DNA from: Solobacterium sp.
GTDB lineage: Bacteria; Bacillota_I; Bacilli_A; Erysipelotrichales; Erysipelotrichaceae
DNA length: 22,205 bases
Assembly (NCBI GenBank): GCA_016291725.1
Contig: JAEEYJ010000021.1
Location: 1-22,205, forward strand
Direction of reading: 5' to 3'
In this document: one piece after another, positions 16,150 to 19,450 of the stretch
Numbering within the stretch: the first letter of the stretch is position 1
Layout of the letters: each line of letters starts with the position of its first letter
Translations under genes and position numbers: made by a program
Notes under the pieces: model-generated
The model's database searches: none
Seen by the model: only the letters and a program-made list of their open reading frames with translations
Told to the model about the DNA's origin: nothing

Positions 16150-16375
16150 CATAGCATTGAAATCCTGGGAACTTGAAATCCTGTGAAGTACGGTATAACA
16201 GAGACAATGGCAAGGTGAAAGCATTGACCGGAGGGCACAGGAAAGACACTTGGGAGGAGCGCTTCTGAGCCGCGGCAGGAAGCGACGGGATGCCCCGTTA
16301 CGGCAGAGCGCATGTTTATACATGAACTAAGGTGGTACCGCGCTTGCAGCGTCCTTGGACAAGGGCGCTTTTTTA
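16150..16375 (+). promoter_or_regulatory. T-box riboswitch leader of hisS-aspS
   Basis: A tRNA-sensing leader RNA. The T-box sequence AAGGTGGTACCGCG is at 16329-16342. Stem I can be drawn: CCTGTG (16180-16185) with CACAGG (16236-16241), CGGT (16191-16194) with ACCG (16227-16230), and CAATG (16205-16209) with CATTG (16222-16226), closed by a GCAAGGTGAAAG distal loop like the double T-loop of glyQS. The specifier region is AAAGACAC (16242-16249). Stem II may be CGCTT/AAGCG (16260-16264 with 16280-16284) and Stem III ACGGG/CCCGT (16285-16289 with 16294-16298). In the antiterminator, AAGG (16329-16332) pairs with CCTT (16353-16356), which is also the 5' arm of the terminator, so the two are exclusive. 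Uncharged cognate tRNA should switch the operon on. Confidence 0.93.
16349..16374 (+). terminator. T-box regulated terminator
   Basis: GCGTCCTT-GGAC-AAGGGCGC, an 8-bp stem with one G-U pair, followed by six T residues. Its 5' arm is shared with the antiterminator. Confidence 0.88.
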
Positions 16376-16395: not shown

Positions 16396-17679
16396 ATGAG
16401 CAACACATTCCAGACCCCGAGAGGCACCTATGACATTCTTCCTGATGAAATGGGAAAATGGCATGATGCTGAACGGATCATGAGGGAGGTATCCGATCTT
16501 TACAGATACCAGGAGATCCGCACGCCCTACTTTGAACTGACCAAGGTTTTCGACCGTGAAGGGGACAGCTCCGACATGGTCAACAAAGAGATGTACTCTT
16601 TCCGGACAAAGGAACAGTACGGTGAGCAGTCCGAGTCCTACACACTGAGGCCGGAAGGCACAGCAGGTACAATCCGGGCATTCGACCAGCACAAGATGTA
16701 CGCAACCAATGAGCTGCCGGTACGTCTGTACTATCTTGGTCCGATGTTCCGTCATGAGCGTCCTCAGAAAGGCCGCCAGCGCCAGTTTACGCAGTACGGT
16801 GTAGAAGCGCTGGGCATCAAGAGCCCGCAGCTGGACGCGGAAGTAATTGCTCTGGGTGTAGATATTATCAAGGCCGTCGGAATCAAGTCCGTCAAGGTCG
16901 CCATCAATACACTGGGCGATGATGACAGCCGTGCAGCTTACCGCCAGGCGCTGAAGGACTACTTCGCACCGCATATCGATGAGCTCTGTGAAGACTGCCA
17001 CCGCCGTTATGAACAGAACCCGCTGCGCATTCTTGACTGCAAGGTGGACGGAGACAACCCGGTCGTGCTCAATGCACCGAAGCTGTCCGATTATCTGACG
17101 CCGGAATCCAAAGCCTACTTCGATGAAGTGCTGAAGTCACTGGAGAGCCTGGGCATCGACTACGAAGTGGATGATCGTCTGGTGCGCGGTCTTGACTACT
17201 ATACCGATACTGTCTTCGAAATCATCTCCGTACGTCCGGAAAGCGGAAAAGCAGCTACCGTATGCGGCGGCGGCCGGTATGACCACTTCATTGACTACTA
17301 CGGCGGTCCTGAGCTTTCAGGTATCGGCTTTGCGTTCGGTGTAGAGCGCCTGCTGACACTGGCTGTTGAGGAAGGGCATGTATTCAATGAGGACCGTCCG
17401 CTGGATGCGTACATCATCAGCCTCGGCGAGACCGGCAGCATCCCTCTGCAGGTAGCCCAGGAACTGAGGCATGCAGGATTGACAGCGGAAGTGAACTTCG
17501 TGCCGCGCTCCCTGAAGTCCCAGTTCAAGTCTTCAGACCGGAAAGGCGCGAAGTACGTCGTGATCATCGGCGAGACGGAAGCAGCGGAAGGAAAGGTCAA
17601 CCTGAAGCGTCCGGGTGAAAAGGAACAGGTTACGGTTGACAGAAAAGACCTGGTCAGAACAATAGAAGGAATGGAATAA
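16396..17679 (+). CDS. hisS: histidyl-tRNA synthetase
   Basis: A 427-residue class II aminoacyl-tRNA synthetase charging tRNA-His. The true start is ATG 16396 (MSNTFQTPRGTYDILPDE) with AAAGGAGAT about 8 nt upstream; the open frame extends upstream only because the T-box leader happens to lack stops. Family markers are LRPEGTAGTIRAF (amino-acid pocket), LYYLGPMFRHERPQKGRQRQF (motif 2), the HisA-type RGLDYYTDTVFEI, and GFAFGVERLL (motif 3). The C-terminal anticodon-binding domain begins near residue 335. aspS follows 7 nt after its stop, the standard Firmicute hisS-aspS pair under one T-box. Confidence 0.97.
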   Translation: MSNTFQTPRGTYDILPDEMGKWHDAERIMREVSDLYRYQEIRTPYFELTKVFDREGDSSDMVNKEMYSFRTKEQYGEQSESYTLRPEGTAGTIRAFDQHKMYATNELPVRLYYLGPMFRHERPQKGRQRQFTQYGVEALGIKSPQLDAEVIALGVDIIKAVGIKSVKVAINTLGDDDSRAAYRQALKDYFAPHIDELCEDCHRRYEQNPLRILDCKVDGDNPVVLNAPKLSDYLTPESKAYFDEVLKSLESLGIDYEVDDRLVRGLDYYTDTVFEIISVRPESGKAATVCGGGRYDHFIDYYGGPELSGIGFAFGVERLLTLAVEEGHVFNEDRPLDAYIISLGETGSIPLQVAQELRHAGLTAEVNFVPRSLKSQFKSSDRKGAKYVVIIGETEAAEGKVNLKRPGEKEQVTVDRKDLVRTIEGME

Positions 17680-17686
17680 AGATACT

Positions 17687-19450
17687 ATGGAACGTACATG
17701 TGGCAACGGCACACTCCGGCTGAGTGATGCCGGCAGAGAAGTAACGTTGATCGGATGGGTTCAGAAAAGAAGAAACTTCGGCTCTCTGGTATTCATTGAC
17801 CTGAGGGACCGTTCCGGTCTGGTGCAGATCGTCTTTGACGAGACGATCAGCGAGAAGGTCAAGGATGTCCGCAGTGAGTTCATTCTGCAGGTATGGGGTA
17901 CAGTGGTCGCCCGGCAGGATCCGAACCTGAAGATTCCGACCGGTGAAATCGAAGTGCGTGCCAGGGATGTGAAGATCATCAATACCGCTGCGACGCCGCC
18001 GATCATGATATCCGACGATACGGACGCGCTGGAGGACACCCGCCTGAAGTACCGTTATCTGGACCTGCGCCGTCCTTCGCTGCAGAAGATCCTGATGACG
18101 AGGCACAAGGTATGCATGGTCACCCGGAAAACACTCGACAGCATGGGATTTGTCGAGGTGGAAACACCGATCCTGGCGCGTTCTACACCGGAAGGCGCAA
18201 GGGACTACCTGGTGCCTTCCCGTCTGTACAACGGCAGATTCTGGGCACTGCCCCAGTCTCCGCAGATCTACAAGCAGCTGCTGATGATCGGCGGTATGGA
18301 GAAGTACTTCCAGATCGCCAGATGCTTCCGTGATGAGGACCTCCGGGCAGACCGCCAGCCGACCTTTACCCAGATCGACGTAGAGATGAGCTTCGTGGAC
18401 GAGAACGATGTCTTTGCAGTGGTGGAAAAGCTGATGCAGGAGATCTTCATGGAGATCCGTGGCTACAAGGTAGAGGATCATTTCCAGAGGCTGACGTGGA
18501 AGGAGTGCATGAAGCGCTTCGGCAGCGATAAGCCCGATCTGCGCTACGGCTATGAAATCAATGATATCAGCGATCTCTTTGCGGATACCGGGTTCACGGT
18601 GTTCAGGAATGTACTGGACAACGGCGGAGAAGTCGATGCATTGAAGTTCGACGCGGCAGCCGGTCATTACAGCCGGAAGAAGCTGGACGAACTGCAGGAG
18701 TTCATCAAGCACAATTTCCGGGCCAAGGCACTGGCGTGGCTGAAGATGGAGAAGGGAGTACTGTCCGGTTCCATCGCCAAAGGCATCAGTGATGCTGAGA
18801 AGCAGGCATTGGTAGAGCGTCTGGGCATTGCGGACGATGATCTGGTACTGATTGTGGCGGACAAGCCGGAAACGGCTGAGACAGCGCTCGGTGCGCTGCG
18901 CATCCGTCTGGCGCATGAGCTGGACCGTCTGCCGAAGGAAGAAACCTATAAGTTCCTGTGGGTTACGGATTTCCCGATGTTCGAATGGGATGAAGAAGAG
19001 CAGAGATGGCAGGCCGCGCACCATCCGTTTACAGCGCCGCGCGTCAATGACATCAATGAACTCTTTACCGATCCGGGCAATGTGATGAGCCGTGCCTACG
19101 ACCTGGTTCTGAACGGTTATGAGCAGCTGAGCGGGTCCATCCGTATCTTTGATCAGAACATGCAGGAGAAGGTGTTCGAGTCCATCGGTATGACCATGGA
19201 ACAGGCGCACCAGAAGTTCGGCTTCTTCCTGGATGCCTTCCAGTACGGTACACCGCCCCACGGTGGATTCGCGATCGGTCTGGAGCGCCTGATCATGGTA
19301 CTGTGCGGTACCGACAACATCCGAGATGTCGTAGCGTTCCCGACGAACAACAGTGCCGTGGATCTGATGAGCGATTCGCCGAACATTGTGGATCAGGCAC
19401 AACTGGATATCCTCGGACTGCAGATTGCGGAAAAAGCAAAAAAACAGTAA
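17687..19450 (+). CDS. aspS: aspartyl-tRNA synthetase
   Basis: A 587-residue bacterial-type class II synthetase. The N-terminal OB anticodon-binding domain includes VTLIGWVQKRRNFGSLVFIDLRD. The catalytic core has RYLDLRRPSLQ, the flipping-loop region PILARSTPEGARDYLVPSR, FWALPQSPQIYKQLLM, motif 2 (ARCFRDEDLRADRQPTFTQID) and motif 3 (GGFAIGLERL). The GAD insertion domain lies between motifs 2 and 3, giving the long bacterial form. Whether it is strictly Asp-specific or also charges tRNA-Asn cannot be judged here. There is only a poor Shine-Dalgarno ahead of ATG 17687, so expression may depend on translation of hisS just upstream. Confidence 0.97.
   Translation: MERTCGNGTLRLSDAGREVTLIGWVQKRRNFGSLVFIDLRDRSGLVQIVFDETISEKVKDVRSEFILQVWGTVVARQDPNLKIPTGEIEVRARDVKIINTAATPPIMISDDTDALEDTRLKYRYLDLRRPSLQKILMTRHKVCMVTRKTLDSMGFVEVETPILARSTPEGARDYLVPSRLYNGRFWALPQSPQIYKQLLMIGGMEKYFQIARCFRDEDLRADRQPTFTQIDVEMSFVDENDVFAVVEKLMQEIFMEIRGYKVEDHFQRLTWKECMKRFGSDKPDLRYGYEINDISDLFADTGFTVFRNVLDNGGEVDALKFDAAAGHYSRKKLDELQEFIKHNFRAKALAWLKMEKGVLSGSIAKGISDAEKQALVERLGIADDDLVLIVADKPETAETALGALRIRLAHELDRLPKEETYKFLWVTDFPMFEWDEEEQRWQAAHHPFTAPRVNDINELFTDPGNVMSRAYDLVLNGYEQLSGSIRIFDQNMQEKVFESIGMTMEQAHQKFGFFLDAFQYGTPPHGGFAIGLERLIMVLCGTDNIRDVVAFPTNNSAVDLMSDSPNIVDQAQLDILGLQIAEKAKKQ

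Follow-up and report, generated by a model that had tools for sequence, protein, structure and literature searches.

The leader upstream of the hisS-aspS operon in the window, by which we mean the whole 22,205-nucleotide stretch of Solobacterium sp. DNA that was analysed, is very probably a canonical transcription-attenuating T-box that controls both genes by reading uncharged tRNA-Asp alone or nearly alone, while the His codon CAC that overlaps its Asp specifier GAC is best explained as a by-product. When one T-box governs two synthetase genes, it has to be asked to which shortage the operon responds, and an earlier note on this DNA had taken the overlap as a possible sign that two tRNAs are sensed. 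Our analysis argues against this use of the overlap, since CAY is generic at this place in T-boxes with an NNC specifier, the last base of the supposed His codon is the closing-pair base of the specifier loop, and the T-box bulge is of the Asp type.

A covariance-model search matched the T-box leader of Rfam (RF00230) at 16158-16359 of the forward strand, on which all features described here lie (90.4 bits, E 1.4e-20); the match runs from Stem I to the antiterminator and spans the full model (positions 1-219 of 219). It is one of 18 RF00230 matches in the host genome, an assembly of 1.67 Mb in 218 contigs that is 80.9% complete and of which the window is one whole contig. In a search at the RF00230 gathering score of 93 bits the window leader is not listed, as it falls 2.6 bits short. 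Profile matches place hisS at 16396-17679 (TIGR00442, 459 bits) and aspS at 17687-19450 (NF001750, 809 bits; also TIGR00459), which confirms the T-box before hisS-aspS described in the earlier note. CCTGTG (16180-16185) and the complementary CACAGG (16236-16241), paired in the minimum-energy fold, form the helix of Stem I that lies above the specifier loop, and the 3' arm is followed by AAAGACACT (16242-16250), with GAC at 16245-16247 and CAC at 16247-16249; both the arm and the pentamer lie where the note had put them. In the Rfam alignment the consensus specifier 'uuc' stands over GAC, 'a' over A16248, the purine that is conserved immediately 3' to the specifier, and a 'C' that is paired in the model over C16249, the closing base of the specifier loop and at the same time the last base of the supposed His codon. 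The covariance model therefore keeps the specifier at GAC without any shift, in agreement with the note's reading of GAC followed by the usual purine, with CAC two bases on. The partner of C16249 is G16175 in the Rfam alignment or G16169 in the window's minimum-energy fold, where TCCTGGG (16163-16169) pairs with 16249-16255 as the upstream strand of the lower helix in Stem I. Sequence and Rfam alignment place the UGGU of the T-box bulge at 16333-16336, with U16336 opposite the tRNA discriminator base, and the intrinsic terminator (16348-16374) is a AGCGTCCTT / AAGGGCGCT hairpin with a T run; according to sequence and predicted fold, terminator and antiterminator are mutually exclusive. The specifier GAC in the Stem I loop agrees with the downstream aspS, and both the T-box and GAC are more than chance. 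The CAC overlap exceeds chance only weakly, given that CAY stands at the equal offset in 45 of 61 comparable NNC T-boxes.

The alternative that survives best is a two-codon T-box, in which GAC would read tRNA-Asp and CAC, shifted by two bases, tRNA-His, so that starvation for either amino acid would switch on both genes. Although both synthetases are encoded downstream, and dual sensing has been suggested for hisS-aspS according to the available text of PMC4342826, we regard this reading as improbable. We sampled 134 hisS loci from 166 genomes of the host's family and class, of which 82 have a recognised T-box leader and the other 52 stand outside the counts; specifiers were read by eye and by a script that looked for GAG at a distance of nine bases downstream from the start of the specifier. 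GAC is present in all 82 leaders, which were collected without fixing GAC, and the pentamers are GACAC in 66, GACAA in 5, GACGC and GACAT in 4 each, and GACCC, GACCT and GACAG in one each. The last two bases thus differ from AC in 16 of the 82, and the 12 leaders in which a His codon is absent altogether speak against reading by tRNA-His. Eight more hisS loci, among the at least 119 matches to a pattern that fixes AGAC and GGTGGYACC, of which the 119 listed were all screened, and hence left out of the GAC and bulge-base counts, carry GACAC (4), GACAT (3) and GACCC (1); they come from Erysipelotrichaceae (L302, L317), Enterococcus (L307, L370), Levilactobacillus (L397), Oscillospiraceae (L303), Clostridia (L364) and Exiguobacterium (L356). 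When these eight are added to the 82, CAC stands at the offset in 70 of 90 hisS leaders and CAC or CAU in 77 of 90. GACAC is thus the commonest form and shows a small CAC excess over controls, both of which favour the two-codon reading. With regard to the conservation of all five bases, which the earlier note had proposed to check, GAC is invariant (82/82) and the last two bases vary (16/82); their drift is not free, yet T-boxes without a His gene seem to be similarly conserved there.

The conservation of GACAC as proof of dual reading was rejected on the basis of tyrS and other NNC controls. Of the tyrS T-boxes (TAC) of the same family, recounted by eye, 17 of 22 had CAY at the offset, with the specifier followed by AC in 14 (TACAC), AT in 3, AA in 3, AG in 1 and GC in 1, and other NNC T-boxes had CAY at the offset in 28 of 39 (for example ATCAC, AGCAC and AACAC). 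Pooled, these NNC controls without a His role show CAY in 45 and CAC in 37 of 61; CAY at the offset is therefore about as common without any His gene, which counts against the two-codon reading. In Fisher tests that ignore kinship and give single-test p values, hisS leaders and controls were compared for CAY (74/87 versus 45/61, p 0.097), CAC (69/87 versus 37/61, p 0.016) and A directly after the specifier (80/87 versus 49/61, p 0.047), and a pyrimidine in the next place was equally frequent (81/87 versus 57/61, Fisher p 1.0). With three named loci added, again with kinship ignored and single-test p values, CAY is found in 77/90 versus 45/61 (p 0.092) and CAC in 70/90 versus 37/61 (p 0.029). 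Two loci, L017 and L145, have ten bases where the reading rule has nine; without L017, p = 0.09 and 0.028. Within the host's family CAC is present in 37 of 44 leaders (p 0.010 against the controls; CAY p 0.15), kinship being ignored and the p values again those of single tests. The CAC excess in hisS leaders is small, and it weakens when CAU, which tRNA-His would also read, is counted.

The tyrS set comprised 30 loci, of which five without the core and three without a readable TAC were dropped, leaving 22. The other controls were 39 of 107 non-hisS T-box loci of the family (17 from the host genome and 90 others), after removal of those with a specifier other than NNC, His specifiers (L442, L463), repeats (L002, L172, L183, L459) and unclear readings (for example L010, L013, L167, L186, L443 and L489). 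Patterns with TAY and CAY served to find the tyrS and hisZ-like leaders, respectively, and the highest-scoring T-boxes were taken first, so that the generic control leans to typical ones. An asnS control was dropped, as 24 of its 30 loci lacked the core motif and one AAC candidate was found. In general, these comparisons carry the warning that an NNC specifier tends to yield an apparent overlapping CAY codon, and that such overlaps should be judged against other T-boxes.

Further evidence comes from leaders that stand before aspS without hisS, defined as a T-box directly before aspS with hisS unmatched in the locus or located on another contig. This set of at least eight leaders is small and mixed in lineage, and CAY is kept in 4 of 8 compared with 77 of 90 hisS leaders (p 0.029, a single-test value that ignores kinship); this lower share favours the two-codon reading. 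Among the matches listed, a GACAC T-box precedes an AspRS gene with no hisS in the locus in Nonomuraea endophytica, N. pusilla and Amycolatopsis echigonensis, where the gene encodes an aspartate--tRNA(Asn) ligase (non-discriminating; NF003483 above cut-off). In Kibdelosporangium aridum a GACAC T-box precedes a gene start with a short AspRS match that ends at the locus edge, likewise with no hisS in the locus (the actinobacterial GACAC loci are L304, L352, L373 and L379, the gene of L379 being cut by the locus end). The other aspS-only leaders carry GACAA (L384, from Firmicutes bacterium UBA4916 with a bacterial AspRS, and L258), GACAG (L260) and GATAA (L246). The actinobacterial cases show GACAC arising without hisS, and the four non-actinobacterial leaders lean the opposite way, in the direction predicted by a His role. 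In family f12, CAY is present in 5 of 6 hisS-linked leaders (L117 and L262-L265, but not L116) and in neither of two aspS-only leaders (p 0.11, again a single-test value that ignores kinship), and in family f6 the hisS-linked L120, L130 and L271 are without CAY, like the aspS-only L258. In the hisS leaders L264/L509 and L265/L508, GACAC is found where hisS is followed by an aspartate--tRNA(Asn) ligase gene (NF003483) instead of bacterial aspS, and the persistence of the pentamer before an AspRS of this archaeal type is a further point on the side of two codons. A T-box before a divergent aspS (L259), left out of the aspS-only set, has the Asn specifier AAC (AACAC in full) and may serve an AspRS that also charges tRNA-Asn.

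Several of these leaders differ from the window's in their architecture. Ultrashort Stem I T-boxes precede hisS-aspS or aspS in some Bacilli, namely in L120, L130, L271 and L258, and also in L119 and L260; here Stem I is a small hairpin that carries the Asp codon within or close to its apical loop, distal loops are absent and the T-box core is normal. CTGACAA lies in or near the loop of L120, L130, L271 and L258, and in L120, L130 and L271 a hairpin resembling a terminator, together with a T run, is also present; for the small hairpins, the predicted folds are weak and dissimilar. According to the available text of PMC7583486, an ultrashort Stem I is a typical trait of T-boxes that act on translation, and those that act on transcription in general require a long one; for this reason, ultrashort leaders before hisS-aspS or aspS may be unusual.

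The last two bases of GACAC can be accounted for by the structure of the specifier loop. T-boxes in general have a purine next to the specifier on its 3' side, which is attributed to stacking (PMC7583486, available text). Among 69 hisS leaders with a long Stem I, the four bases from the fifth base of GACAC onwards can form four pairs with a stretch directly after a 5' GA-N motif in 55, and in all 55 leaders with a four-pair partner at this fixed place a G lies opposite the fifth-base C. In the 33 leaders with an arm other than CTTT, the leader's own 5' strand pairs in 21, compared with 5.0 on average and 11 at most when arms were swapped between leaders (2000 draws, 33 leaders). Neither of the two GACAT leaders among the 69 has a partner at the fixed place; their best-pairing stretch puts A opposite U (CGGA/TCCG in L054, GGAA/TTTC in L122), which is only suggestive of kept pairing because the stretch was selected for its pairing. 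Covariation and partner counts together place the last base of the supposed His codon in the closing helix in most relatives. In a two-codon T-box the second codon should be unpaired, whereas the Rfam alignment and the predicted fold both pair the final C of CAC, and the relatives covary; furthermore, we infer that a two-base shift would misplace both the purine and the helix below.

The window leader belongs to the 14 of 69 leaders without a perfect four-pair partner at the fixed place, so that opening C16249 would be easier here than in most relatives. The lower helix of its Stem I (16163-16175, 16249-16255) is degenerate, and a leader from the same genus (L020) is likewise without a four-pair partner at the fixed place; in the window's minimum-energy fold a seven-pair helix that includes G-U pairs replaces the degenerate helix. 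The weak lower helix, its recurrence in L020 and a score below the gathering score (90.4 versus 93 bits) would also be expected of a decayed, non-functional leader in the host genome, but we consider decay very unlikely, since the distal loops of Stem I, the specifier, the UGGU bulge and the terminator with its T run are intact and the same operon and leader recur across the host's family.

The T-box bulge provides a further indication of the tRNA that is bound, as the last base of UGGN separates Asp-type from His-type leaders in the host's family. In all 82 hisS leaders this base is U (52) or C (30), although any base was allowed in recognition; it was read by script in 73 leaders and in 9 more, with L056 and L083 read separately. 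T-boxes before hisZ-like genes, weak HisS paralogues of the same family, have the specifier CAC in 16 of 16 and A at this base in 14, G in 1 and T in 1 (20 loci, of which 4 without the core were set aside, the label 'hisZ-like' being given without a family test). Two more CAC leaders, L442 and L463, carry A, which brings A to 16 of 18 His T-boxes compared with 0 of 73 hisS leaders (Fisher p 6e-16). In the host genome and a relative of the same genus, with acceptor stems read by eye, tRNA-Asp has G73 (L411 in the host, L416 in the relative) and tRNA-His C73 (L507, L497), so that the window's UGGU would fit the GCCA end of tRNA-Asp through a G-U wobble and would not fit tRNA-His. The bulge of a two-codon T-box would be expected to resemble that of the second tRNA's own T-boxes, whereas the window's UGGU is unlike most His T-boxes of the family and the base is never of the His type in the 82 leaders. 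The His T-boxes themselves (L193-L209 except L199; L442, L463) mostly carry UGGA, though tRNA-His ends in C73 in the two genomes examined, leaving A and C unpaired. The least probable reading of all, a His-only T-box read at CAC with GAC incidental, agrees with the presence of CAC and with hisS as the first gene, but was rejected because GAC is invariant (82/82) while CAC is not (66/82), the Rfam alignment puts the register on GAC, the bulge has an Asp-type base, and in the family's own His T-boxes (16 leaders upstream of hisZ-like genes) CAC occupies the specifier place itself, mostly together with UGGA.

The sequences show the anatomy, the register, the covariation in relatives and the bulge base; that the leader is specific for tRNA-Asp in the cell, and that it switches, we infer. 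GAC would pair with the GUC anticodon of tRNA-Asp, A16248 would stack beneath the codon-anticodon pairing, and C16249 would be kept within the closing helix of the specifier loop; binding of the GCCA end of uncharged tRNA-Asp by the UGGU bulge would then tip the balance from the terminator at 16348-16374 to the antiterminator. The overlapping CAC would arise from an NNC specifier, a generic purine and a generic closing-pair pyrimidine, with hisS carried along in the operon and a shortage of His unsensed or sensed only weakly. There is a small chance that tRNA-Asp is the main reading and that tRNA-His is read through CAC as a weaker second one after the closing pair opens. If this were the case, a trace of selection for dual reading would be seen in the CAC excess of hisS leaders and in the smaller share of CAC among aspS-only ones, and dual reading would work best in genomes with a weak lower helix such as the host's.

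The reading of tRNA-Asp alone or nearly alone can be compared with what has been reported for related systems. In the available text of PMC5313534, GACAC in the specifier loop is described as characteristic of hisS-aspS T-boxes, and Gutierrez-Preciado et al. (2009) are cited there as having suggested that GACAC interacts mainly with tRNA-Asp, whereas the available text of PMC4342826 cites the same review for the suggestion that the element adopts two alternative structures and senses both tRNAs; as far as these texts go, the two sources disagree on its content. Both the occurrence of GACAC in hisS-aspS T-boxes and the idea of dual sensing are thus already published. The earlier note had rightly guessed that the concept was known, and its suggestion that the instance might be new does not stand: as far as the available texts describe them, the published hisS-aspS GACAC T-boxes share operon, pentamer and leader type with the window and only the host differs. 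Among the named loci listed, the closest hisS genes are those of Erysipelotrichaceae L302 (67% identity) and L317 (64%). With RF00230 the window leader shares Stem I, antiterminator and terminator, and it differs in its score below the gathering score and its weak lower Stem I helix. TBDB examines the frames -1, 0 and +1 around specifiers and notes alternative frames (PMC7778990, available text), whereas the overlapping codon of the window lies in frame +2. The two-codon T-box reported by Saad et al. (2013, PNAS) shares with the proposal made for the window the notion that a single T-box carries codons for two different tRNAs, and the difference is that the putative second codon of the window lies at generic positions of the specifier loop.
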